From a virus: a DNA stretch of 20,875 nt. Both the position numbers and the translations under genes were made by a program. Positions within the stretch are counted from its first letter, which is position 1. Every line of letters begins with the position of its first letter. Shown piece by piece: positions 2,423 through 17,487 of the stretch. Location of the stretch: positions 1-20,875 of IMG/VR virus record IMGVR_UViG_3300042879_000847. The stretch is one strand, 5' to 3'. Under the pieces are notes generated by a model that was given only the letters and a program-made list of their open reading frames with translations, made no database searches and was not told where the DNA came from.

Positions 2423-2803
2423 ATGTCTGACACCCCGTACTCGAATCGGAGCGATCTTCAGAATGTTGCTGCGAAAGTAGCAACAGGTCAAACCTACGGT
2501 ATGGCTAAACAGCAGATGGATGCGCAACGCGCCGTCCCAATGGGCAAATCGCCTGTCGATGTGGCGGCTGTTCAGCGTCCGGTGCCTGGAACGTTGGGTT
2601 CGTTGACTCGCCCAACTGAGCGTCCGATGGAACCGATCACGGCTGGTGCCCCGTTCGGTGCTGGACCGTCACCAACTGCTGCTGGCATCCCGATGCCAAC
2701 TTCTGCTTCCGCATCAGCGTTGGATGAGGTTCGCGCTATCGCAAGCATCTACGGGAATGATGATCTTCTTGATTTGTTGGATGCGTATGGAAACGACATC
2801 TGA
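2423..2803 (+). CDS. Small Pro/Ala-rich virion-block protein, function unknown
   Basis: This 126-residue protein begins SDTPYSNRSDLQNVAAKVATGQ and then has YGMAKQQMDAQRAVPMG. I associate that arrangement (a DL stretch, then ATGQ, YG, a Gln-rich helix and AVP) with small proteins encoded just after the portal in actinophages. The centre (residues about 50-95) is Pro/Ala/Gly/Ser-rich and probably disordered. The end (ALDEVRAIASIYGNDDLLDLLDAYG) looks like an acidic helical hairpin. A strong TAGGAGG site at 2411-2417 lies 5 nt before the ATG. Its stop overlaps the next start in TGATG (2801-2805), so the giant gene behind it is probably translationally coupled to it. It could be a small assembly factor or a linker; no function is assigned. 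Confidence 0.75.
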   Translation: MSDTPYSNRSDLQNVAAKVATGQTYGMAKQQMDAQRAVPMGKSPVDVAAVQRPVPGTLGSLTRPTERPMEPITAGAPFGAGPSPTAAGIPMPTSASASALDEVRAIASIYGNDDLLDLLDAYGNDI

Positions 2804-5800
2804 TGTATCTGTCGCGTCAAATCGTCCCAGAAACTAAATCCGCACCCGCCACCAAACCTGAACCGCAGGTGTCGATGACTCCTGCACAAGCTGAACGGCT
2901 TTCGCAGATCAAGCAGCGGGCAGGATGGATCCCACCCGACTATCAGGTGCAACTCGCAAAAAGTAACGCAACCGATCAGGCTGTTGATGCTGTAGCCAAC
3001 ATGAAGGCTAAGCAGATTGTTGACGATCAGGCATCCGAGGAAGAAGGTGGCTGGTGGCGACGTAACGTGTACGACCGTTTGAAAGCCGGAACCCGTTGGG
3101 GGTTCGCTGGTTTGAACTTTGTTCCAGAGTTCGTGCAGGGCGGTTTAGCGCAGATCGTTGATGAGGACAACAGTGTTGATGGCTGGTTCATTTCTTCGAC
3201 GCTCGGCTCAATGATTGAGAACCCTGAGTTGCAGGGTGAAGGGTTTTTCGCTGACGAGAAACTGATGGAGAAGCAGGCTGAACGTGCTCGCCGTTATCGC
3301 GGTACGGTAAACGGGTCTGCGTGGACCGTTGGACGTGGCGCAGCAAACGTAGTGTTCAAACCAAACTCGAAGCCGTACAACATCATGTCCGGCATTTTGG
3401 ATGCTGTTGCGATGGTCAAGTTCGATCCAACTGGGCCAGTGACTAAAGGTTTGAAGTATGTCACTAAAGGCAAGAACACTGTTCCGTTGTTCGCTGATGA
3501 GGCGACTCGTGCGTTGCGTGAAGCGCTTGAATCACAGGCTGGTGTTACTCGTGGTTTGGCGGAAGCAACTCTTGATGGAACGAAGTTTGATGCGTTCACC
3601 CGCACGAACGGTCGCATGGTTCGTCTTGTTGATCGTCTAACAGAAATCAAGAACCCTGTTCGTATCGCAGAAATCTTTGATTACAACCTGCCGAACGAGA
3701 TGATTACTGCGCTTGCTGACGCAAATGATCCTGATGTTGTTCGAGCGGTCTTGGGTGCTGGTTGGACGGTGCGTGGTGGTACCGCACTACCGCAAGACAT
3801 TCGCCTGATTCAAGGAAACCGTGTGGTTTCTGGTGTTGGGGATTTCATTGTTGAACGCGCCCCGTTCATTGACGGTATCCGCAAGTCACGTTTCTTCACC
3901 TCGATGGGTGACGCAAAGATTGTTACCCACGGAACACAGGAAGATAACCGTAACGCAGTCAAATCCATTGTGTCCTACCTGCGCACAGCTGGTGTTGATA
4001 ACGACACCGTTGACAGTGTTGCGAACCTTGCGTTCCGCTCGTTCACCCCTGGTGCTTCAGATGTTGCCCGTAAGCAGACTATGGATGCGTTCTACCAAAC
4101 GTTGAAGTCAGTGATGCGGGTCGATGGGATACCAGAACAATCGATTGACGAACTGTTCAATGTCGGCCGCCGCCGCATGGATCAGATGCGCCGATACTTG
4201 CAGGATCGTCTTGGTATGCCGTTCGACAACGGATACAAGTCTTACCTGATGAATAAGGACCGAGAGTTTCTTCCAGTTGAAGACATTGAGCGAATCATCA
4301 AAGAACTTGGTTTGGAGAAGGGTGGAAAGTCTGCGATCACGTCACCAACCGAACTGGTTGAGTTGTTGGATCGAGCAATCGTTTTGCCTGACTTGCGCGA
4401 GGTACGCCGATTCACCCGTAGCAAACTGTTCCGTGACGTTATCGGTGAACGGATGGGCAAGCTCCCTATCACCGCTAAACGGCAAACCCGCATGGTTGAG
4501 GTCATCACCGATGAGAAACGGTTTGATGAAGTCACCCGCGAAATCAACGACCTTCTGGAATTGCCGAACCCTGTTGATGCCGACTATGTGAAGTTGGAAG
4601 AACTACAGAAAGAACTTGCCTCGTTGAAGGCGATGGAGCCACGCAAGATCATCACCCCAGATCAGCGTTTCGCCTTCGAAGCAGTTGACTTTATGCAGAA
4701 CCAGTTGTGGAAGCCCCTTGCGCTGGCTACTGGTGGTTATGTGGTGCGTAACTCGTTGGATGCGCAGGTGCGTATGGCGTTCAGCGAACTCCCCTCACTG
4801 TTCACCCACCCGTTCGAGTACATCAACCTGGTGCTGGGTTCATCGAAGAAGATGACGTTGCGTATGGAAAACTTGGCGAAGGTGCGTGGCCGTGCCAAGC
4901 CTGGTGAGGTTTTGCCTGAGGATGTTTTGACGCTTGATGATTTGCGTGAGGATGTGCGTGAAGCCCTTACGTTTGGTTTGCGTCAGCAGGGTCTTGGTGC
5001 ATCAGAGATTGATAATCATTTGATTGCGACTGGTTCGTTTGACAATGTGAATCGTGGTATGTCGAACGGTTTGGCGTTGCATACGGATGCTGTTGTGCAG
5101 AACGGTCGCCGTACTCAGGGTGATCCGTTGCGGAAAGTCGCTACTCAGACATTTGTTGAGATGGGTGGCGTAAACAAAACCTCTATTGATATTGCTGCCA
5201 ACCGTGTAGCAAACGTAATCATAAAAAATCCAGACATCCGCAATGGTGTCGATGACCTTCACAAGTTCGGTTTTGAGATCACGGCTGCGGAAACCGGTCG
5301 CAAGGCTCGTACGCCCGCTATTGATTTGACAGTTCTACCCGAAGATGAACAGCTTGCCGCATACCGCCAGTACGCATATCGGGTCGTAGTCGGAAATCAG
5401 CAGATTTTGACCGGCGCTATCCCTGAAGCAGGGTTCATGTATGCGTTCGGATACGTTCCGAAAACAGCGGGCGGGAAAATGGCTGGCGCGTTTGAGCAGG
5501 CTGTTGACGAGTTGACCGTGTTAGAGCGACCGCAAGCTGGGTTTGTGGGTGCGACGGTACAGATGGCGGACGATCAGATTGGTGTTGTTACGCGCGTATC
5601 TGATTTATCTGGCGAGTTCGTGGTTGATCCGTTTGATGGTTCGGTGGTGGAGTTGAAGGGTCTTGTTGCGACTGTTCAGCCGGTGTTCCCCGATAAGGCT
5701 TTTGATGCGACGTATGGTTCGCGTGAGGCTCGCAAGTTGATTGAGTTGATGCCTGTGTCGGATGATGCGGCTCGACCTGGTTTGCCGATGGTGTTGAAGC

Positions 5801-7656
5801 GTGAGTTGTTGATGCGTGACGAGCGTTTCAAGACTCGTGCACAGAATCTTGAAGATGGGATGAATCAGGCTACGAACTGGTTTTTCGGTCGTTTGTATGG
5901 GACTGTGACCCGCAAGTTGGAGCGTTCGCCTGTGTTCCGCGAGTACTATTACCGTCAGGTGACTGATCTTGCTGGTCGGTTGAAGCCTGAGGATGCTCAA
6001 CGTTTCTTGGATGACGCGGCTGCTAAAGCAAAGAAGGCTGGTGTCAGCATCCAGGATTATGTTGGCGACAAGCAGATGGTGAGCGTTCTCCGCAGATCAG
6101 CCGAAACAACTGGCGACATCAGTTTGGAAGAATTGGATGATTACGCCAAGTTCGTGGCGTTGACACGTACCAAAGAACTTTTGTACGACGCATCAAATCG
6201 CAGCAACCTCGAAGATGTGCTCCGTGTCATCATGCCGTTTGCCCCAGCATGGAAAGAAATCATGGGTACCTATGTCGGGTTTATGAAAGCGAACCCCGTG
6301 AACACAGCCCGCTCATTCCAGCGTATCTACACAGGTTTACAGGGTGCAGACCCAGACAATGACGGGCGCGGATTCTTCTATCAGGATCCGAACACGAATC
6401 AGATGATGTTTACTTTCCCTGCATCAGGCACATTGGCGAAAGTTCTTACTGGTTTGGATGCGCCGTTGGAGGCACCGGTGAAGCGTCTGTCGCAAGGTAT
6501 TCAGGCGTTCCCTGCGCTCGGTCCTATGGGTCAGGTGGCAGCCTCGAAGATTCTTCCGCATCTACCTGAAGCAGAGTTCTTTACTGGCTTGTTGTTGCCG
6601 TATGGTTTGAAAGGTCCCGCAACAGCGTTCAACCCGACACCACAATGGTTGCAGAAAGCAACACAAGTTTTCACAGCCCCTACAGCCGATCTGGAAACAC
6701 AATACGCCAACACCTACATCGAAACACTGCGAGCACTCTCAGCCTCCGGCGACTATGACCTTTCATCGAAGGATGACATCAACCAACTGGAATCGGACGC
6801 AAAGTTCAAGGCCCGCATCTTGATGGGTTTCCGTGCCCTCTCCCAGTTCTTTGGTCCGACAGCTGGTGCTACAGAGTTCAAGATTCCGACCGAGCAGGGC
6901 GACAGGTTCGTGAGCGGACTCATCAAAGAGTTTTACGATATGCAAGCCAACCCTGACATCGGTTACGAGAAAGCGGTTCCAGAGTTTTTGCGTATCTACG
7001 GTGATGAGGCAGCACTCTATGTGGCATCGAAAACACGCTCAGTGGCGGAAGGTTTGGAGGCAACAAAAGAGTTCCAGGATTGGGCTGACGCTAACGCAGG
7101 GCTGGTGAAGGATTATGCGTCGGTTGCTAACTATCTGGCTCCTGCTGGATCGGACTTCAATTTCGCGGTGTGGAGCCTTCAGTTGCAGCGCGGTGAACGT
7201 GTCCGGTTGACGGATCGTGAAGTGGTTGAGTTGGCTCAGCAGCGTATCGGTTCAGCTAAGTATCGTGATGCTCGCCGTCAGGTTGGACCGTATCCGTCTG
7301 ATGCTGCTCGTGACGCTTTGAAGCGGTATCGAGAGTTCCTGCACGGTAAGTACCCTGGGTTTCCTGCGGTGGCAGAGTTCGAGGTTGGGTCGTTCTACAA
7401 TGACATTCTTTCGTTGAAGGATCTTGTGGATGATCCTCGGTCGGCGGGGAATGATACGGCTGTTGCGATCCGTGAGTATTTGATTGCTCGTGAGCGGGCT
7501 ATCGCGGTGTCTGGTGTGTCGGAGCAAGGGTTCAAGACTGCTAAATCTGCTGCTCGTGCTCGTGCAGGTTTGGAAAGTATCGGTATCTCGTTGGCAGAGA
7601 AGTATCCTGGGTTTTCCCGTATTTTTGATCGTCTATTAGCATCTGAGGTGGAATAA
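2803..7656 (+). CDS. Giant 1617-residue virion protein, probable internal/ejection protein
   Basis: One uninterrupted frame of 1617 residues starts at the ATG within TGATG. It is by far the largest gene in the window, about 23% of its length. Visible parts are a disordered Pro-rich N-terminus (1-30), a charged coiled-coil-like stretch (about 564-615), an Arg/Asn-containing GGYVVRNSLDAQVR segment near 642-656, and a compact beta-rich stretch near 913-962 that could be an SH3-like barrel. A Trp/Pro-rich block near 1139-1300 includes MPFAPAWKEIMGTYVGFM and GFFYQDPNTNQMMFTFPASG. It ends SLAEKYPGFSRIFDRLLASE. Similar segments occur, to my recollection, in very large unnamed actinophage proteins. 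No peptidase, transglycosylase or toxin signature is visible. Its place between portal and scaffold fits a protein packed inside the head and ejected with DNA. A tape measure is unlikely because there is no long helical repeat. Confidence 0.72.
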   Translation: MYLSRQIVPETKSAPATKPEPQVSMTPAQAERLSQIKQRAGWIPPDYQVQLAKSNATDQAVDAVANMKAKQIVDDQASEEEGGWWRRNVYDRLKAGTRWGFAGLNFVPEFVQGGLAQIVDEDNSVDGWFISSTLGSMIENPELQGEGFFADEKLMEKQAERARRYRGTVNGSAWTVGRGAANVVFKPNSKPYNIMSGILDAVAMVKFDPTGPVTKGLKYVTKGKNTVPLFADEATRALREALESQAGVTRGLAEATLDGTKFDAFTRTNGRMVRLVDRLTEIKNPVRIAEIFDYNLPNEMITALADANDPDVVRAVLGAGWTVRGGTALPQDIRLIQGNRVVSGVGDFIVERAPFIDGIRKSRFFTSMGDAKIVTHGTQEDNRNAVKSIVSYLRTAGVDNDTVDSVANLAFRSFTPGASDVARKQTMDAFYQTLKSVMRVDGIPEQSIDELFNVGRRRMDQMRRYLQDRLGMPFDNGYKSYLMNKDREFLPVEDIERIIKELGLEKGGKSAITSPTELVELLDRAIVLPDLREVRRFTRSKLFRDVIGERMGKLPITAKRQTRMVEVITDEKRFDEVTREINDLLELPNPVDADYVKLEELQKELASLKAMEPRKIITPDQRFAFEAVDFMQNQLWKPLALATGGYVVRNSLDAQVRMAFSELPSLFTHPFEYINLVLGSSKKMTLRMENLAKVRGRAKPGEVLPEDVLTLDDLREDVREALTFGLRQQGLGASEIDNHLIATGSFDNVNRGMSNGLALHTDAVVQNGRRTQGDPLRKVATQTFVEMGGVNKTSIDIAANRVANVIIKNPDIRNGVDDLHKFGFEITAAETGRKARTPAIDLTVLPEDEQLAAYRQYAYRVVVGNQQILTGAIPEAGFMYAFGYVPKTAGGKMAGAFEQAVDELTVLERPQAGFVGATVQMADDQIGVVTRVSDLSGEFVVDPFDGSVVELKGLVATVQPVFPDKAFDATYGSREARKLIELMPVSDDAARPGLPMVLKRELLMRDERFKTRAQNLEDGMNQATNWFFGRLYGTVTRKLERSPVFREYYYRQVTDLAGRLKPEDAQRFLDDAAAKAKKAGVSIQDYVGDKQMVSVLRRSAETTGDISLEELDDYAKFVALTRTKELLYDASNRSNLEDVLRVIMPFAPAWKEIMGTYVGFMKANPVNTARSFQRIYTGLQGADPDNDGRGFFYQDPNTNQMMFTFPASGTLAKVLTGLDAPLEAPVKRLSQGIQAFPALGPMGQVAASKILPHLPEAEFFTGLLLPYGLKGPATAFNPTPQWLQKATQVFTAPTADLETQYANTYIETLRALSASGDYDLSSKDDINQLESDAKFKARILMGFRALSQFFGPTAGATEFKIPTEQGDRFVSGLIKEFYDMQANPDIGYEKAVPEFLRIYGDEAALYVASKTRSVAEGLEATKEFQDWADANAGLVKDYASVANYLAPAGSDFNFAVWSLQLQRGERVRLTDREVVELAQQRIGSAKYRDARRQVGPYPSDAARDALKRYREFLHGKYPGFPAVAEFEVGSFYNDILSLKDLVDDPRSAGNDTAVAIREYLIARERAIAVSGVSEQGFKTAKSAARARAGLESIGISLAEKYPGFSRIFDRLLASEVE

Positions 7657-11073: not shown

Positions 11074-11090
11074 CCACCGACAGTGGTGTG

Positions 11091-11099
11091 TGCTACACT
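11091..11099 (+). promoter_or_regulatory. Extended -10 promoter for scaffold and capsid genes
   Basis: TGCTACACT is a TGn-extended -10 with hexamer TACACT at 11094-11099. No good -35 lies 16-18 nt upstream (positions 11071-11076 read TAACCA), which is common for actinobacterial promoters. The start point would fall near 11106, giving a leader of about 108 nt before the scaffold ATG. The same 10 bases (TGCTACACTT) recur at 12721-12730 in front of the next transcription unit, which strengthens the call. Confidence 0.6.
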
Positions 11100-11103
11100 T
11101 CGA

Positions 11104-11207
11104 GTGTTCCAACAGGGACACCATCGGAACCCCCCGATTTCGATGTGAAAACAAGGGTGAGACTTTGCAGCCATCTGGAACCTCCAACCAGATGTGGGCA
11201 GAAGGAG
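11104..11207 (+). promoter_or_regulatory. Structured 5' leader upstream of scaffold
   Basis: The gene-free stretch 11074-11213 holds three small hairpins. Stem A pairs 11104-11110 with 11115-11121 (7 bp including one G-U, loop AACA). Stem B pairs 11123-11127 with 11134-11138, with a competing pairing of 11122-11126 and 11141-11145. Stem C pairs CATCTGG 11172-11178 with CCAGATG 11188-11194. The 9-base loop of stem C contains CCTCC (11181-11185), which can pair with GGAG of the ribosome binding site AAGGAG at 11202-11207. This arrangement could act as a translational switch for the scaffold gene. The pairing is read by eye; function is inference. Confidence 0.45.
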
Positions 11208-11213
11208 TGAGCC

Positions 11214-11657
11214 ATGTCAGAAGCAAACTTTGAGTTTGATGAGGACGCGGTAGAGCAACAGCCGAAGGATCCCGTTAGGGCACATCTGCGGAAACTCGAA
11301 GCCGAAAATAAGGCTTTGAAAGAGCAGGTCGTAGCCAAAGCGGAAGCCGAACGGAAGTTGGCGTTTGTTGAGGCAGGTCTTGATCTGTCGAATCCAGCCG
11401 CCAAGTATTTCGTGAAGGGCTATGACGGTGAACTTTCACCGGAAGCAATCCGACAGGCGGCCGAGGAAGCAAGTCTCATTCGTAAGCAAGACACGTCTGG
11501 TGAACAGCAGGCGTGGAACAGGGTGGCTCAGGCTGCTCGTGCGGGTGACACAAGCGAACCGGTTGTTGACTACAGCACCAAAATCAAGCAGGCACGTTCA
11601 GCCGATGAAGTGATGCAGATCTTGGCTCAGGCGAGAGCTGAAGCAGAAAACCTGTAA
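11214..11657 (+). CDS. Capsid scaffolding protein
   Basis: This 147-residue acidic protein lies immediately before the major capsid gene. Residues 1-18 are strongly acidic (EANFEFDEDAVEQQPKD). Residues 19-50 are a coiled coil (PVRAHLRKLEAENKALKEQV). A LAFVEAGLDLSNPAAKYFVKGYDGELSPEAI segment follows, characteristic of actinophage scaffolds, with a helical C-terminus (SADEVMQILAQARAEAEN). Scaffolds guide assembly of the procapsid and leave or are cleaved before packaging. AAGGAG at 11202-11207 gives 6 nt spacing to ATG 11214. No prohead protease is seen in the window, so the scaffold probably exits intact or is removed by a protease encoded elsewhere. Confidence 0.85.
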   Translation: MSEANFEFDEDAVEQQPKDPVRAHLRKLEAENKALKEQVVAKAEAERKLAFVEAGLDLSNPAAKYFVKGYDGELSPEAIRQAAEEASLIRKQDTSGEQQAWNRVAQAARAGDTSEPVVDYSTKIKQARSADEVMQILAQARAEAENL

Positions 11658-11684: not shown

Positions 11685-12650
11685 GTGGCTTACACCCAGC
11701 AATCATCGCTGTCTGTCGATCAGGCAGCATACGATCAGATCGCATACTTCGCGTTGCGCTCTGAGCTTCTGTTCGATCAGGCGGCAGACGTGCAGCCAAC
11801 CAACCAGTCCATGCCTGGTTCGTCGGTGACGTTCACGATCTTCGCGGACCTCGATGCAGCAACCTCACCACTCACCGAAACCTCGGATGTGACCGCTGTC
11901 GCGATGAGCGATTCGCAGGTCACGGTGACCCTTGCCGAGTACGGCAACACCGTCAACACGACCGCCAAGCTTCGTGGAACCTCGTTCCTCGATGTGGATG
12001 TCACCGCAGCGAACGTCATCGGCTACAACGCTGGTGACTCCATCGATCAGGTCATCCGCGAAGTTCTCGCTGGTGGCACGAACGTCGTCTACGGTGGCGG
12101 TGGATCGTCCGATCCGTCGAGCCGTGTCACGGTTGCAGCAGAAGACATCATCGAAGCCAACGACATCCGCAAGGTGACCGCACAGCTTCGCAAGGCCAAC
12201 GTCGCAACGTTCAACGGCTACTACATGGGTTTCATTCACCCAGACGTGTCGTACGACCTGCGTCGTGAAACCGGCAACGCTTCGTGGAACGCTCCGCACG
12301 TCGCTGTCGATACCGCCAACATCTACAACGGCGAGATCGGCACCTTCGAGTCGGTGCGCTTCATCGAAACGCCACGTGCAAAGGTCTTCGAGAACGCCTC
12401 GAACGGCACCAGCACCACCGGAACCATTGACGTGTACTGCACCCACATCATGGGTCGTCAGGCACTCGCAAAGGCGTACAGCCAGGTTGATGGCAACAGC
12501 GCGTTCCCGAAGGTCGTTCGCGGCCCGATCGTGGATTCGCTCATGCGTTTCAACCCGATCGGCTGGTACTGGCTCGGCGGTTACGGTCGATTCCGTGAGG
12601 CATCGCTCCGTCGCATCGAGTCGTCGTCCAGCATCGGCGCAAACAGCTAA
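11685..12650 (+). CDS. Major capsid protein, N4-gp56-like HK97 fold
   Basis: This 321-residue protein starts at GTG 11685 with AAGGAAG at 11671-11677, 7 nt upstream. It has the layout I associate with the N4-gp56 family: an N-terminal helix (VDQAAYDQIAYFALRSELLFDQAA), then PGSSVTFTIFADLDAATSPLTET, then VTLAEYGNTVNTTAKL. An IRKVTAQLRKANV helix, the segment YMGFIHPDVSYDLRRET, NIYNGEIGTFESVRFIET, and a C-terminal RFNPIGWYWLGGYGRFREASLRRIES complete it. It forms the icosahedral shell. Codons are strongly shifted to C-ending forms (TTC, GTC, AAC, ATC, GGC) compared with the T-ending neighbours, consistent with selection for very high expression. A strong terminator follows 23 nt after the stop. 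No N-terminal delta domain is present; the separate scaffold replaces it. Confidence 0.9.
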   Translation: MAYTQQSSLSVDQAAYDQIAYFALRSELLFDQAADVQPTNQSMPGSSVTFTIFADLDAATSPLTETSDVTAVAMSDSQVTVTLAEYGNTVNTTAKLRGTSFLDVDVTAANVIGYNAGDSIDQVIREVLAGGTNVVYGGGGSSDPSSRVTVAAEDIIEANDIRKVTAQLRKANVATFNGYYMGFIHPDVSYDLRRETGNASWNAPHVAVDTANIYNGEIGTFESVRFIETPRAKVFENASNGTSTTGTIDVYCTHIMGRQALAKAYSQVDGNSAFPKVVRGPIVDSLMRFNPIGWYWLGGYGRFREASLRRIESSSSIGANS

Positions 12651-13119: not shown

Positions 13120-14979
13120 ATGGCTCTAACGATTTCTGAGGCGGGTAGCGCAACTTCTAACACCTCGTCTTCGACGCTGGTTGTTACTCCAACGGTTTCG
13201 TTTTCTGCGAATGATGGTGTTGTGGTTTGTATCGCCGCCGATAATTCAACCGCACAGGGCGGTTTGCCGTTTTCGTCGGTTACTGATTCTCAATCAAACA
13301 CATATACGCTTGTTCGGAGCGTAAAACAGCAAGGGGCATCCCAAAATAATCTTGCCTGTGGCGCTATTTATTTTTGTGTTGTGCAAAATGCGTTGTCTGT
13401 ATCGGATTCAATCACTGTCAACTTTCTGAATAACACGACCGCAAAAGCCGCCGTTACATTCAAAATTGGTGCTGCAGCGAATAAAAAACCCAGCCAAATT
13501 AGCGATAATGTTTTCAGTCCTACTGGTGATGCGTCTTCATCGTCGAGGTCTACAACGACTATGACATCTGGCGATGCGTTGGTCTACTTTCTTGCCATCG
13601 AAAACAATGGTGTTGTGACTGGTGACTCAGACACAACAAGGGGTTCTTGGTCATCTGCTTATGTGGCAAATGCGGATTCTGGCACTGCTCTCACATCCAT
13701 GCAGGCGTTTTCGCAATATAAAATTGTTACAGGGAATGGAACTCAAACATGGGATACAACATTCCCAAGTTCTAGCAGTTTCGCAACAGCATACGCCACA
13801 TTCAGAGAAGTTGCTGCCCTTTCAACATTTGATAGAACTGCCACTGGGTCTGGTGCTGGGACAGCAACAGCCGCCACAAAAGTAACCCAACTTCGACTTG
13901 GCATCCACACCGATTTTTCATTCGGTTTCATCAACGGTGCAGGACGTTTCTATATCGGTCCACCAACCATTGTGCGCACCGCTACAGGTTCAGGGACGGG
14001 TGCTGGATCTGCGACAAAGAAAATAGTTGCTGTCCGAACCGCCACAGGCTCAGGTACAGGCACATCCTCCAGTGCCGAAATCCTAATAGCGAAACGCACC
14101 GCCACAGCAACCAGCACAGGCACCTCAACCGCCGCAACCAAAGCCAGCCGCACACGCCTCGGCTACCTCATCGACTACCACACAGGCTTCTACGGCAACG
14201 GCGGACGCTTCTACCTCGGCGCACCAATCATCGCCCGAACCGCCACAGGCGCAGGGCAAGGCACCCAAACCGCTACACCGCTCCCAATAAAAGTACGCAC
14301 AGCCACAGGCACTGGAACAGGAACCTCCAACAACACCATAGTTGTTGGCAGACTTCGCACAGGATACGGTTCGGGCGGTGCCACCGCAGGCGACCAAGCG
14401 CTAATCCTGGTTGCACGGGTACGCACCGCCACAGGCAGCGGTACCGGCGGATCCAGCATCAGCTACATCGAACTCCTCCCACGCACAGCCACCGGCACAG
14501 GACAGGGCACAGCAACCACCACCATCCTCAGGGTCGTGCCACGCACCGCCACAGGTGGAAGCACCAGTGGTTCCGTCACCATCGAAATCCTTATCGCTAT
14601 TCGCACCGCAACAGGATCGGGCACCGGAACAGCACAGGCCATCGGTGCACGAATCAGGCGTCGCACAGGAACAGCAACAGGAACAGGAGACGGATCAGCA
14701 GATTGGACTAAATCGCATATCTTCCGTGTCCCCTACACGGAAACCTATCCAGGCGGATACTTCGGTGGCGGTGACGCAGCGAACCGTCTGCAACGCTACA
14801 ACCGCACAAACGTGCGTGGACTCAACCTGTACAAACTCACAGACGGCAGTTACACAACCATCACCCAGCGCGATCTTGGGCAGGTAACAAAAATCTGGTA
14901 TGGTGGCCGCGACCATTTCCTCACCGACGCAGAAGTTGTAGAGTTGACCGAAGCAGGATTCGGAGCGAGCATCACCTGA
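13120..14979 (+). CDS. Thr/Ser/Gly repeat virion protein of 619 residues
   Basis: Residues 1-237 are Ser/Thr-rich and strand-like, resembling a bacterial surface or tail-fibre beta-sandwich (TSSSTLVVTPTVSFSANDGVVVCIAADNSTA). From residue 239 to about 530 there are eleven copies of a motif beginning RTATGSGTGT, mostly 20 residues apart, with two related 47-residue long units. Residues about 531-619 form a distinct C-terminal domain (LNLYKLTDGSYTTI, then TKIWYGGRDHFLTDAEVVELTEAGFG) that is duplicated in the next gene. No signal peptide, membrane segment or enzymatic motif is visible. The protein is probably an elongated fibre, collar or decoration component. It overlaps the next gene by 1 nt (TGATG). 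The repeat half has base composition unlike its neighbours. Confidence 0.75.
   Translation: MALTISEAGSATSNTSSSTLVVTPTVSFSANDGVVVCIAADNSTAQGGLPFSSVTDSQSNTYTLVRSVKQQGASQNNLACGAIYFCVVQNALSVSDSITVNFLNNTTAKAAVTFKIGAAANKKPSQISDNVFSPTGDASSSSRSTTTMTSGDALVYFLAIENNGVVTGDSDTTRGSWSSAYVANADSGTALTSMQAFSQYKIVTGNGTQTWDTTFPSSSSFATAYATFREVAALSTFDRTATGSGAGTATAATKVTQLRLGIHTDFSFGFINGAGRFYIGPPTIVRTATGSGTGAGSATKKIVAVRTATGSGTGTSSSAEILIAKRTATATSTGTSTAATKASRTRLGYLIDYHTGFYGNGGRFYLGAPIIARTATGAGQGTQTATPLPIKVRTATGTGTGTSNNTIVVGRLRTGYGSGGATAGDQALILVARVRTATGSGTGGSSISYIELLPRTATGTGQGTATTTILRVVPRTATGGSTSGSVTIEILIAIRTATGSGTGTAQAIGARIRRRTGTATGTGDGSADWTKSHIFRVPYTETYPGGYFGGGDAANRLQRYNRTNVRGLNLYKLTDGSYTTITQRDLGQVTKIWYGGRDHFLTDAEVVELTEAGFGASIT
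13834..14700 (+). repeat. Tandem 60-nt coding repeats (20-residue RTATGSGTGT units)
   Basis: Repeat motifs begin at nt 13834, 13975, 14035, 14095, 14236, 14296, 14422, 14482, 14542, 14602 and 14662. Runs at 13975-14095, 14236-14296 and 14422-14662 keep an exact 60-nt step. The units starting at 13834 and 14095 are both 47 residues and share an extra RLG, GF, NG, GRFY, G-x-P tail. The DNA copies differ at many third positions, so the repeat is old or under protein-level selection rather than a recent expansion. Confidence 0.85.
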
Positions 14980-15275: not shown

Positions 15276-15556
15276 TAAAGCATCAAGAAACCCACCCATA
15301 TTTGGATGTTGAGGGATGTTTCGGTTGCCGTACAGCAGGCATCCAGTTCGGTGCCTCATCTATGCCGACTCGTGCCGGTAGTGCCCGTTCAGCTGTTATC
15401 GAGGCGAAGGATCGTGTGCTAGACAAAGATTTGGACGCATATAAGCGTTTGCGTAAAGATGGTTTGCAGCCACGCAAGATTGATGGTTCGGCTGAAGTGG
15501 AAAAGAGGGCTGAAGAAAAATGGCAGGTGGAAACGGGGATCATTCCCAATACCTGA
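15272..15556 (+). CDS. Small GCFGC-motif protein, function unknown
   Basis: This 94-residue protein starts at GTG 15272 inside a GTGA overlap, with GGGGAG at 15258-15263, 8 nt upstream. It begins HPYLDVEGCFGCRTAGIQFGAS, and the rest is charged and helical (DLDAYKRLRKDGLQPRKIDGSAEVEKRAEE). The H-P-x-L-D-V-x-GCFGC opening followed by AYKRLRxDGLQP is a familiar pattern in small proteins of actinophages and uncultured aquatic phages. The single Cys-x-x-Cys pair could bind metal only with extra ligands or as a dimer. It lies between the duplicated-domain protein and the glycosyltransferase and overlaps the latter by 37 nt. Its role is not known. Confidence 0.72.
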   Translation: MIKHQETHPYLDVEGCFGCRTAGIQFGASSMPTRAGSARSAVIEAKDRVLDKDLDAYKRLRKDGLQPRKIDGSAEVEKRAEEKWQVETGIIPNT

Positions 15557-16656
15557 GTTTGGTTGGGGTGAACCTGCCCCATGTTGGTTACGGCAAAATG
15601 GTTTCTGGTTTGCGGTCTGCGCTCGCAAGCAGAGTTGAGTTGTGTGATGATGCGGAGCGGGTGGTGTTTGCGCTTCGACCAAATCTTGTGAAAGGTTGGA
15701 TGTCGGATCAGCAGCCTGCGCTTCTTACGATGTGGGAAACAAACTGGCTTCCACCAGAGTTCTCCGAATATCTGCATTATTTCGACACCATCGTTGTCCC
15801 AAGTGTCCACAACTGGGAACTGTTCTCAGAGTTCCATGACAATGTTCGGGTAGTGAACTTGGCGGTTGATCGCAGCATCTATTTCCCTGTTGAGCGTGAA
15901 CAGACCCGTAAGTTCCGTATCTTGTGTGGCGGTTCAGAGTGGCATCGCAAAGGGTTAGATGTTGTGTTGAGGGTGTTCAACGAGATGCAGTTACCTGACT
16001 GTGAGTTGCATATCAAGATTGTGCCCCCCTATCTGTCGGCACCGGACAATTTGGATAATCCGAATGTGGTGGTGTGGCGACATTGGATGACCCCTGATGA
16101 GGAAGCTGATTTGATGCGGTCGTGTGACGTGTTTGTGTCGGTGTCGCGTGGTGAAGGGTTTGGGTTGATGCCGTTGCAGGCGATTTCGTGTGGGGTGCCA
16201 ACGATTGTGTCGAACGCTCACGGTCATCGAGAGTTCTCAGATCTAGCCACCCACCGAATTAGCACTAAATCAGTGCCTACGGATAACGGGGTTTGGAAAG
16301 ACATGGGGGACTGGGATGAACCGAATCAGGATGAGTTGAAGGAAGCGATTCTGGACTGCTACGAGAACCGTGACAGGTATCGACAGCAGGCATCAGAGCA
16401 GGCTGAACAAACTTCGGTATTCAACTGGGATACGGCTGCCGAAGAACTGGTGAAGGCGGTCAAACCGACCAGCAGACGGGCATCAGGCAAGTTCAAACAT
16501 TTGGAGCCAACCTGCATCATCATGGTATCCAAACGGGTACAGGCACAGATCGGGAACCATGCGATTGATCTGGCTCCTGGGGTAAAGCACAGTGTAGTGT
16601 TGAATGTGCGAGATGTTTTACGAGCTTCAGGAGTCGTAACGTATGAAGAAATCTAA
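15520..16656 (+). CDS. GT4-like glycosyltransferase with extra C-terminal domain
   Basis: This 378-residue protein has a GT-B layout. The N-terminal Rossmann-like half starts SLVGVNLPHVGYGKMVSGL. The C-terminal half has the nucleotide-sugar loop GGSEWHRKG (137-145; R143 and K144) and the acceptor/donor motif GEGFGLMPLQAISCGVPTI, where E212 is present but the second Glu of the usual E-x7-E motif is Gln220. It should transfer a sugar from a nucleotide donor. Residues 332-378 (CIIMVSKRVQAQIGNHAIDL, then VLNVRDVLRASGVVTYEEI) are not part of a GT4 fold and resemble a small phage structural domain. The ATG 15520 start overlaps the previous gene by 37 nt; AGAGGG at 15504-15509 is the best ribosome site. 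TTG 15559 is an alternative. Its place among virion genes suggests modification of a virion protein. Confidence 0.82.
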   Translation: MAGGNGDHSQYLSLVGVNLPHVGYGKMVSGLRSALASRVELCDDAERVVFALRPNLVKGWMSDQQPALLTMWETNWLPPEFSEYLHYFDTIVVPSVHNWELFSEFHDNVRVVNLAVDRSIYFPVEREQTRKFRILCGGSEWHRKGLDVVLRVFNEMQLPDCELHIKIVPPYLSAPDNLDNPNVVVWRHWMTPDEEADLMRSCDVFVSVSRGEGFGLMPLQAISCGVPTIVSNAHGHREFSDLATHRISTKSVPTDNGVWKDMGDWDEPNQDELKEAILDCYENRDRYRQQASEQAEQTSVFNWDTAAEELVKAVKPTSRRASGKFKHLEPTCIIMVSKRVQAQIGNHAIDLAPGVKHSVVLNVRDVLRASGVVTYEEI

Positions 16657-16807
16657 GAGTCAGAAGAAGGTCACGAAGGTGATGCGTGAATTCAAGGCTG
16701 GTTCGTTGCACTCTGGGAAGGGTGGTCCTGTGGTGAAGTCTCGTAAGCAGGCTGTCGCTATCGCGCTGTCTAGCGCTGGGAAGTCGAGGATGAAGCGTGG
16801 CAAGTAA
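16643..16807 (+). CDS. DUF6496-like basic microprotein
   Basis: This 54-residue protein begins MKKSKSQKKVTKVMREFKAG, then SLHSGKGGPVVKSRKQAVAIALSSAGKSRMKRGK. The segment KVMxEFKxGxLxSGxxGxVVKxRKQAxAIALSxA is what I recognise as DUF6496, found in phages and bacteria with no firm function. AGGAG at 16629-16633 lies 9 nt before the ATG. It overlaps the end of the glycosyltransferase by 14 nt and the next gene's start by 11 nt. The very high Lys/Arg content suggests nucleic acid or polyanion binding, which is inference. Confidence 0.75.
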   Translation: MKKSKSQKKVTKVMREFKAGSLHSGKGGPVVKSRKQAVAIALSSAGKSRMKRGK

Positions 16808-16955
16808 GAAGGCTTTTTGGGATAAGAAGAACCCGAAGAAGAAGTCCACTCCGTTGTCGGCTTCTCAGAAGAAAGCTGCGCAGGCTCGTGCGAAGAAGGC
16901 TGGTCGCCCGTACCCGAACCTTGTGGATAACGCTTGGGCTTCTCGTAATGGCTAA
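16797..16955 (+). CDS. Basic microprotein with YPNLVDN motif
   Basis: GTG 16797 opens a 52-residue frame, MASKKAFWDKKNPKKKSTPL, then a Lys/Ala helix and AGRPYPNLVDNAWASRNG. GAGGA at 16786-16790 is 6 nt upstream. The FWDKKNPKK start and the GRPYPNLVDN end form a familiar pattern of tiny phage proteins found beside DUF6321-type genes. No function is known. It overlaps the next start by 8 nt (ATGGCTAA), so the two are probably translationally coupled. Confidence 0.72.
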   Translation: MASKKAFWDKKNPKKKSTPLSASQKKAAQARAKKAGRPYPNLVDNAWASRNG

Positions 16956-17208
16956 GACACCGGCATGGCAGCGCAAAGAGGGCAAGGATCCGAAGGGCGG
17001 GTTGAACGCGAAGGGTCGAGCGTCAGCGAAAGCGCAGGGGATGAATTTGAAGCCACCTGTGTCTGCGGCGCAGGCAAAGCGTTCACCGAAGGCGGCTGCA
17101 CGGAGGAAGTCGTTTTGTGCGCGAATGTCTGGTATGCCTGGGCCGATGAAAGACTCGAAGGGTCGTCCGACCCGCAAAGCGCTGGCTTTGCGTAAGTGGG
17201 ATTGCTGA
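16948..17208 (+). CDS. DUF6321-like basic small protein
   Basis: This 86-residue protein reads MAKTPAWQRKEGKDPKGGLN, then AKGRASAKAQGMNLKPPV, RRKSFCARMSGMPGPMKDSKGRPT and a final ALRKWDC. That is the DUF6321 signature as I know it (PAWQRKEGKNPxGGLNxKGRxS, then RRxSFCARMxGM, ending ALRKWxC). The frame is open further upstream to 16888, but those extra 20 residues are only the shadow of the previous gene, and the family begins at the MAKTPAWQ start. There is no clear ribosome site, and the ATG sits in an 8-nt overlap with the preceding stop. The family is widespread in phages; its role is not known. Confidence 0.8.
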   Translation: MAKTPAWQRKEGKDPKGGLNAKGRASAKAQGMNLKPPVSAAQAKRSPKAAARRKSFCARMSGMPGPMKDSKGRPTRKALALRKWDC

Positions 17209-17211
17209 GAG

Positions 17212-17220
17212 TGGTATCCT
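17212..17220 (+). promoter_or_regulatory. Possible extended -10 promoter before the last microproteins and tail genes
   Basis: TGGTATCCT gives TGn-TATCCT with the hexamer at 17215-17220. It sits in the only gap between microprotein genes (17209-17248). No -35 of quality lies 16-18 nt upstream. The 3' part overlaps the inverted repeat at 17219-17241. Confidence 0.35.
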
Positions 17221-17241
17221 TTTCGTTTAGTCAACGAAAGG
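17219..17241 (+). promoter_or_regulatory. Inverted repeat covering the ribosome binding site of the next gene
   Basis: Positions 17219-17227 pair with 17233-17241 (9 bp with one G-U) around the loop TAGTC. The 3' arm contains GAAAGG (17236-17241), the Shine-Dalgarno sequence for ATG 17249. In a read-through transcript the stem would hide that site. In DNA it could be an operator overlapping the possible -10. It has no T tract, so it is not a terminator. Confidence 0.4.
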
Positions 17242-17248
17242 TTTCCGT

Positions 17249-17371
17249 ATGTCCATGAAGGGCAAGAAGTACAAGTCCAAGAAGGCCGAGATGAAGCATG
17301 AGCGTTCTGAGGGCAAGAAGGAACGCATGATGGAATACGGTGCCAAGAAGTCCAAGAAGAAGGGAAAGTAA
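17249..17371 (+). CDS. Lysine-rich microprotein, 40 residues
   Basis: ATG 17249 opens MSMKGKKYKSKKAEMKHERS, then EGKKERMMEYGAKKSKKKGK. GAAAGG at 17236-17241 is 7 nt upstream. More than a third of the residues are Lys. I do not recognise a named family, though tiny Lys-rich proteins of this style are common in uncultured phages. The start is supported by the ribosome site, the clear gap before it, and the close neighbour behind it. Confidence 0.6.
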   Translation: MSMKGKKYKSKKAEMKHERSEGKKERMMEYGAKKSKKKGK

Positions 17372-17373
17372 TT

Positions 17374-17487
17374 ATGCCAATGGTCGGAAAAAAGGAATTC
17401 CCGTACACGAAGGCTGGAATGGCTGCCGCTAAGAAGCAGGCCAAGAAGTCTAGCAAGCCGATGAAGAAGGCTAAGAAGAAGAAGTAG
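17374..17487 (+). CDS. Lysine-rich microprotein, 37 residues
   Basis: ATG 17374 opens MPMVGKKEFPYTKAGMAAAK, then KQAKKSSKPMKKAKKKK. AGGGAAAG at 17361-17368 is 5 nt upstream, and the gene follows its neighbour by 2 nt. The VGKK-x-FPYTKAGMAAAKKxAKK opening is a familiar pattern of very small phage proteins. The polylysine-like tail suggests polyanion binding. Its TAG overlaps the GTG of the next gene by 1 nt. Confidence 0.65.
   Translation: MPMVGKKEFPYTKAGMAAAKKQAKKSSKPMKKAKKKK

Follow-up and report, generated by a model that had tools for sequence, protein, structure and literature searches.

What is the role of a long gene-free stretch that lies directly before the genes for a viral shell? 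The window analyzed here is an entire virus record of 20,875 bases, in which the portal and capsid genes share one direction and in which the 140-nt gap at positions 11074-11213 is, as the initial annotation had stated and as a check of open reading frames and genes confirms, the largest between genes that harbors no plausible gene. The gap is followed on the plus strand by a putative scaffold gene (11214-11657), which matches a family of unknown function (phrog_7813) and adjoins the major capsid gene (11685-12650, also on the plus strand; PF13252, Phage_capsid_3, and phrog_1357), presumed to be the second gene of the operon. We infer that the first of these genes encodes the scaffold from its position directly 5' of the capsid gene, from its size and from a helical structural model of modest quality (pLDDT 73, pTM 0.35) with low confidence at the N-terminus. 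In this model we recognize helices and no RNA-binding fold.

One report treats WhiB as a key marker of actinophages (PMC10202952). Of 17 whole relatives (38-42 kb), 16 contain a WhiB gene, and the window virus is taken here to be an actinophage. Searching a phage genome collection with tblastn yielded no cultured relative of the window scaffold at an E-value of 0.01, and the window capsid matches 91 records in the phage genome collection, all of them below 60% identity.

Layout of the leader

The three stems proposed for this gap in the initial annotation were located where it had placed them (11104-11121, 11122-11145 and 11172-11194), and the loop of the last one (11179-11187, AACCTCCAA) does contain CTCC (11182-11185), complementary to GGAG at 11204-11207. 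Taken together with the comparisons presented below, these elements suggest that the 5' untranslated region of the scaffold-capsid mRNA would fold into a small control RNA. In the window, all of whose leader features lie on the plus strand, a -10-like box (TACACT, 11094-11099) without a matching -35 box stands 5' of the leader and is followed by an optional 5' half. This half comprises hairpin P1 (GTGTTCC-AACA-GGGACAC, 11104-11121), supported by single-sequence folds and by the alignment, and hairpin P2 (CATCGGAA-CCCCCCGA-TTTCGATG, 11122-11145), supported by single-sequence folds. The CCC of the P2 loop (11132-11134) pairs with a GGG at 11155-11157, which is then followed by TGAGA, in a first pseudoknot (PK1).

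The core hairpin would consist of a two-pair closing helix, P3a (11167-11168 and 11198-11199), of an invariant AGC/TGG internal loop and of a variable helix, P3b. Position 11167 pairs with 11199, a pair that we call X-Y, and 11168 with 11198. The AGC side of the internal loop (11169-11171) faces its TGG side (11195-11197), and the P3b arms, CATCTGG (11172-11178) and CCAGATG (11188-11194), enclose the CTCC of the P3 loop (11182-11185), which is the 5' strand of a second pseudoknot (PK2). Its 3' strand is the GGAG (11204-11207) of the ribosome-binding site AAGGAG (11202-11207). The stems and PK2 of the initial annotation stand in this scheme, and what its structure had missed is PK1, the closing helix, the internal loop and the dispensability of the 5' stems in some relatives.

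Single-sequence folding of the leader is unremarkable, with z-scores of -1.96 over 150 nt (6 of 200 shuffles as stable), -1.38 over 114 nt (18 of 200) and -0.67 for the core (47 of 200), and the minimum free energy folds of two relatives (L262 and L264) lack P3. Given such weak z-scores, stability was rejected as proof of structure, and it is comparison that carries the case.

Conservation of the core

Relatives were gathered by capsid-led searches of viral contigs (best 80 loci each) and by two motif-led scans, for a total of several hundred loci, some of which are one contig under two identifiers. A leader was considered readable when the locus includes the scaffold start together with 75 or more bases 5' of it. 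Loci truncated by a contig end, either ahead of the leader or inside the leader or gene, were set aside (9 of 80 in the first search, 9 of 80 in the second and 6 of 67 in the two further ones described below). Among the best 80 of 373, the best 80 of 228 and the best 80 of 414 relatives, the core is found in all 152 readable leaders (71 of 71, 71 of 71 and 10 of 10 new ones), corresponding to 104 distinct sequences. Two further capsid-led searches revealed it in 61 of 61 new identifiers, which are partly repeat contigs of the first search. Although CAGCC belonged to the search pattern, this pattern matched every readable capsid-led leader.

Stem sequences differ widely among these relatives while pairing is kept, and the compensatory changes across related phages by which the initial annotation had proposed to check its stems are thus present. 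Over 63 distinct cores, 98.3% of the 756 cells of the 12-pair structure are paired, and 96 cells have changed on both sides against a shuffled mean of 25.6, a figure that none of 500 shuffles equals. In the same cores, neither the count of doubly changed pairs (6 versus 5.3 in shuffles; 239 of 500) nor that of pair types (17 versus 14.8; 22 of 500) is outstanding. Shifting the partner by one to three columns lowers pairing in this alignment to 37-56%. The ribosome sites of L264, L300 and L302 look misaligned in it, and we take them to account for most of the five cells scored as 'other' at the last PK2 pair. Both CAGCC and GTGGG are invariant in 63 of 63 distinct cores. The counted structure and the covariance model pair the CC of the former with the GG of the latter, and the energy estimates used the arrangement of a single-sequence fold, a 3x3 loop topped by a single C-G pair; because all of these bases are invariant, covariation cannot decide which of them pair.

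Covariation was then assessed on a tree of scaffold and capsid proteins covering 110 distinct leaders, 84 of them capsid-led, by scanning all 325 pairs of variable columns in a 48-column core alignment, the arms of which were justified from the stem foot, against a null in which the changes per column were kept and redistributed on the tree. Four P3 pairs rank first of the 325 (E ~0) and another one reaches E ~0.17, and three of the expected P3 pairs, namely the innermost two and the one next to the outermost, lack significance (E 1.8 to 7.3). Where wobble pairs occur, the plus strand carries them as T-G (at one P3 pair, 35 T-G and no C-A), which points to RNA rather than DNA as the conserved molecule.

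The closing helix is likewise maintained. The X-Y pair is G-C in 42 and A-T in nine of the 51 distinct capsid-led cores, and broken in none. This count is the fair one because the motif patterns fixed X-Y as G-C; with motif-led cores included, the figures are 52 G-C and nine A-T over 61 distinct cores. In the 325-pair scan X-Y obtains E ~0.017, tied with one unexplained spacer pair, and a likelihood test that, here and below, is inflated when events are few favors dependent over independent evolution of its two bases (p = 1.8e-5; 110 rows). On average, P3a contributes about -2.5 kcal/mol (63 distinct cores). The tied pair lies in the spacer between the ribosome site and the ATG (11208-11213), where two columns, mostly G-T or A-C, are coupled (E ~0.017) although they do not make up a standard pair.

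Pairing between the loop and the ribosome site

The pseudoknot between the last loop and the ribosome site, which the initial annotation had put forward as possible, covaries: a CCTCC loop accompanies GGAG and a CCTCT loop accompanies AGAG. The fourth PK2 pair is C-G in 51, T-A in six, T-G in two and a broken A-G in two of 61 distinct cores, and among the 51 distinct capsid-led cores this last pair is C-G in 47, T-A in four and never broken. All six distinct cores seen with an AGAG site (L079, L055, L127, L142, L155 and L240) have a CTCT loop. When viral contigs were scanned with the ribosome site set to AGAG and the loop left free, 22 stretches were obtained, of which 21 present the core and, in 21 of 21 cases, a CCTCT loop; the scan is only partly independent, 11 of its loci having been fetched earlier, and the remaining stretch (L354) lacks the stem loop and looks like a chance match. 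With AGAG in place of GGAG, the site pairs less strongly with the 16S tail (-8.3 instead of -11.4 kcal/mol), so that PK2 seems to be preserved even where this makes the site weaker.

In the likelihood test, the loop base and the ribosome site evolve dependently (p = 1.5e-5; 108 rows, two rows with a loop A being left out), and mismatched-column controls give p values of 0.44 and 0.36. The fewest changes that the tree requires are seven at the loop base, four at the ribosome site and three each at X and at Y. PK2 has E ~1.6 in the all-against-all scan and ~0.005 as one pair named beforehand; supported branches provide three independent contrasts, too few for significance, and none in the opposite direction. 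Informative variation is confined to one of the four PK2 pairs. The resulting layout is that of an H-type pseudoknot masking the ribosome site, in which the loop of a 5' hairpin pairs with the site and shows compensatory change, with two of 61 distinct cores breaking the pair.

Stacking in PK2 is roughly estimated at about -7.7 kcal/mol before the cost of closing the pseudoknot. In 107 of 110 leaders the distance between P3a and the ribosome site is no more than 3-5 nt, and with GGAG so close, PK2 over a fully closed P3 would be cramped. P3a and PK2 may thus exclude each other: either the internal loop bends the helix or the two alternate, as the rough energies allow. The safest functional deduction is that PK2, wherever it forms, must hinder initiation, because the ribosome site is one of its strands.

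The optional 5' half and the putative transcription start

In most relatives the RNA would begin with the optional 5' half, P1 coming first and then P2 with its CCC/GGG pseudoknot. PK1 can be read in 86 of 110 distinct leaders, as CC(C/T) in the P2 loop and (G/A)GG downstream. Its third pair is C-G in 80, T-A in five and T-G in one of these 86 leaders, and dependent evolution is favored here too (p = 1.1e-3; 86 rows), in a parse restricted to C/T and A/G at the position tested, under which three of the four combinations score as paired. In 44 of the 86, a potential fourth pair does not form. PK1 cannot be read in the other 24 leaders, and the tree requires three or more gains or losses of it. 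The 5' half, including both 5' stems, appears to be dispensable in some relatives. A separate scan of this half (82 rows, 3655 pairs), which suffers from misaligned short forms, places P1 and P2 pairs at the top with borderline E-values of 0.2-0.8, the best pair being in P1 (~0.2) and the next ones being 11123-11144 (~0.3) and 11122-11145 (~0.8).

Of 106 distinct leaders, 88 have a TTGACA-like box combined with a -10-like box 5' of the core, a combination present in 81 of 2120 shuffles; the window leader itself carries the -10-like box only. Among full forms with a match, the -10 box lies 65-70 nt from the core in 59 of 66 and 46-47 nt in the other seven; in the 22 short forms with a match the distance is 18-20 or 7 nt, five of them having a box that ends 7 nt 5' of the core. 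Judging from these distances, the mRNA would begin at the element. This agrees with the start point 5' of the stems assumed in the initial annotation, as the promoter-like sites lie upstream of the stems and none is needed downstream of the third.

Specificity of the core

Of 43 stretches searched with the core covariance model, 41 yield a single match each, whereas the regions of Streptomyces phage Kumquat and of Planktophila phage E7 yield none. Each of the 17 whole relatives (38-42 kb) holds one strong match (52-73 bits), and two further matches in these genomes are noise (10.9 and 9.4 bits; E 0.26 and 0.58). The motif scan contributed at least 107 new loci, 105 of which present the core directly before a readable scaffold start; one locus (L228) has the same protein start, cut off, and another (L202) is without the core. 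The core was not seen before any other gene among these loci. A copy in hosts or prophages was also considered and rejected: the 11 pattern matches in bacterial genomes (84,980 species) have at most one paired base at the stem foot and are read as chance, and no capsid relative was confirmed in the bacterial genome collection (84,980 species by description).

The initial annotation knew of no named RNA class for this leader, and we find none either, with no Rfam 15 family, SAM-II and preQ1-II included, at gathering threshold in the window and 12 further loci of the class. At E-values up to 10, the leader attracts only two sub-threshold families, both partially and neither of them SAM-II or preQ1-II. 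The L31-Firmicutes leader (RF03156) was rejected at 15.4 bits (E 0.6) against a gathering threshold of 33.3, its partial match around GGGCAGAAGGAG covering little beyond the ribosome site and three pairs. No published description of the leader was found in the literature searched, which does not include the 224-motif collection, and the passages on capsid and phage in the 104-motif paper hold no capsid leader. We regard it as a new RNA family that belongs to a general kind already known, the ribosome-site pseudoknot leader, no example of which is known to us at a scaffold gene.

A different leader in a sister clade

In the sister clade formed by relatives of Planktophila phage LanE43AprE7 (phage E7; OX376640), the core is absent from 68 of 68 readable leaders among the best 80 of at least 595 relatives. 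This clade presents a conserved leader of its own 5' of the scaffold gene (L150:2310-2425; leaders in L367-L446). Its five-base helix takes the form ACCAG/CTGG, ATCGG/CCGA or ACCGG/CCGG plus the last base, with five pairs in 39 and four pairs in 17 of 56 distinct leaders and no mismatched combination at the two swapping positions. A second helix, interleaved with the first, has a mean length of 5.72 over 25 distinct pairs, exceeding all 500 shuffles (maximum 4.64). A column-pair filter applied without a null to 45 distinct leaders is passed by 11 pairs, five of which are fully paired with two-sided changes. The ribosome site reads GGGTGG in all 56 leaders; facing it, a CCCC-loop hairpin could be parsed in 52 of 56, a candidate pairing that varies little. 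No Rfam family reaches threshold at seven loci of this class.

Profile comparison shows homology between the scaffold proteins of the two clades (probability 95.5, E 1.4e-8), with a score possibly helped by coiled-coil segments. The two clades thus appear to carry unrelated leaders before homologous scaffold genes. A comparable situation is described in one study for ribosomal protein S15, where homologous genes of different lineages have unrelated leader RNAs that answer to one protein (PMC5100602). Like the S15 leaders, for which control has been demonstrated, the two leader classes might answer to one protein at homologous genes.

Proposed mechanism and alternatives

The comparisons above support the helices, both pseudoknot pairings, the link to the scaffold gene and the presence of one strong copy per whole relative, and the structured leader noticed in the initial annotation is, on this evidence, real. 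The structure is well supported; the regulator and the switching are what we infer. Because its fold is kept by matching mutations in more than 100 relatives, the leader probably controls the amount of shell protein made. As to how, we tentatively favor, as somewhat short of an even chance, that masking of the ribosome site would control scaffold-capsid translation, most likely autogenously through free scaffold (or capsid). Pairing of the apical-loop CTCC with GGAG would keep ribosomes off for as long as PK2 is formed. The regulator would come from the operon itself, most likely as free scaffold and in second place as capsid, and would recognize the invariant internal loop and the junction, a natural place for a regulator to choose between states. 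By shifting the balance between masked and open ribosome sites, this regulator would let shell-protein synthesis track head assembly. The single gene link, the single copy and the presence of a different RNA at the homologous gene of the sister clade fit such autogenous control by scaffold or capsid.

A wider proposal, in which we place clearly less confidence, is that RNA assembly sensors gate head building in freshwater actinophages: free scaffold would close a pseudoknotted leader over the ribosome site, which would reopen as scaffold enters procapsids, and at least two unrelated leader classes would do so at homologous genes of sister clades.

The most serious competitor, which we nonetheless consider unlikely, is a fixed translation-rate device without a ligand, in which the pseudoknots and the hairpin at the 5' terminus would hold scaffold output constant, or melt as the temperature rises, and would shield the mRNA 5' end. 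The five short forms in which the -10 box lies 7 nt before the core suit this explanation, because their mRNA would begin with the hairpin itself, and with P3a at about -2.5 kcal/mol the states could be finely balanced. A passive structure, however, has no need for the CAGCC and GTGGG of internal loop and junction to be invariant, as they are in 63 of 63 distinct cores, nor for X-Y to be restricted to G-C or A-T. It is distinctly improbable that the leader is a riboswitch for a small molecule or ion reporting the stage of infection. SAM-II and preQ1-II riboswitches are H-type pseudoknots with the ribosome site in the second stem, and the leader shares this layout together with invariant loop bases. 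Unlike them, it has a different sequence, different junctions and another gene context, matches no Rfam family and, on the at least 107 new motif loci and the 11 stemless bacterial matches, stands before no other gene. Slightly more doubtful still is a target for a host factor (a ribosomal protein, an RNA-binding protein or a nuclease) instead of a phage protein, an idea to which the partial L31-Firmicutes match (15.4 bits, E 0.6) lends itself but which the distance of that match from its 33.3-bit cut-off, and its near restriction to the ribosome site and three pairs, speak against. Finally, conservation of DNA (promoter or operator palindromes) or of plain sequence, suggested by the promoter in the same gap, is very improbable given that the stems diverge widely yet stay paired, that wobble pairs fit one strand only and that most promoter-like sites end 5' of the stems.

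Relation to known systems

In P22, free scaffold protein lowers its own synthesis post-transcriptionally. To our knowledge, no RNA element has been defined for this autoregulation, and what we know of scaffold/coat balance in tailed phages comes mainly from P22 genetics, likewise without a defined RNA element. Our literature search found no paper on P22 scaffold autoregulation covering all the aspects searched. The window resembles P22 in so far as its putative scaffold gene lies beside the coat gene, and differs from it in offering a defined RNA with a conjectural regulator.

For phage T4, passages of a study on gene 32 describe a pseudoknot in the mRNA leader, upstream of the ribosome site, that nucleates cooperative binding over UUAAA repeats (PMC535899). 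As in that operator, pseudoknots (here PK1 and PK2) lie 5' of the start codon in a phage leader, before a gene with a product that has to be tuned. Unlike in gene 32, the ribosome site is itself a pseudoknot strand and the gene is that of a head scaffold; repeats of the UUAAA or UAAA type are absent before the start codon of the window, where the sequence reads AGAAGGAGTGAGCC. Autogenous control by scaffold or capsid would resemble that of gene 32 by gp32 in principle, and that of the P22 scaffold in its biology. Passages of a 2010 review mention possibly one viral pseudoknot used in translational autocontrol (PMC3014915), and the leader, if our favored reading of autogenous masking is true, would be the second such phage pseudoknot. 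This compact RNA, strongly conserved and plausibly two-state in its layout, is present in every readable relative examined, at the step where scaffold and coat are balanced. A different leader of the same kind exists in the cultured pair of Planktophila phage E7 and strain LanE-43, which makes autogenous control of head assembly directly testable.

Other genes of the window were noted in passing. Between the portal and scaffold genes, positions 2803-7656 encode a 1617-residue protein without PHROGs or Pfam match at the thresholds used, and the protein encoded at 13120-14979 contains many copies of an RTATGSGTGT-like repeat. A glycosyltransferase gene (15520-16656; PF20706 and PF00534) lies 3' of the structural genes, and positions 16643-17487 hold a series of small, very lysine-rich open reading frames.
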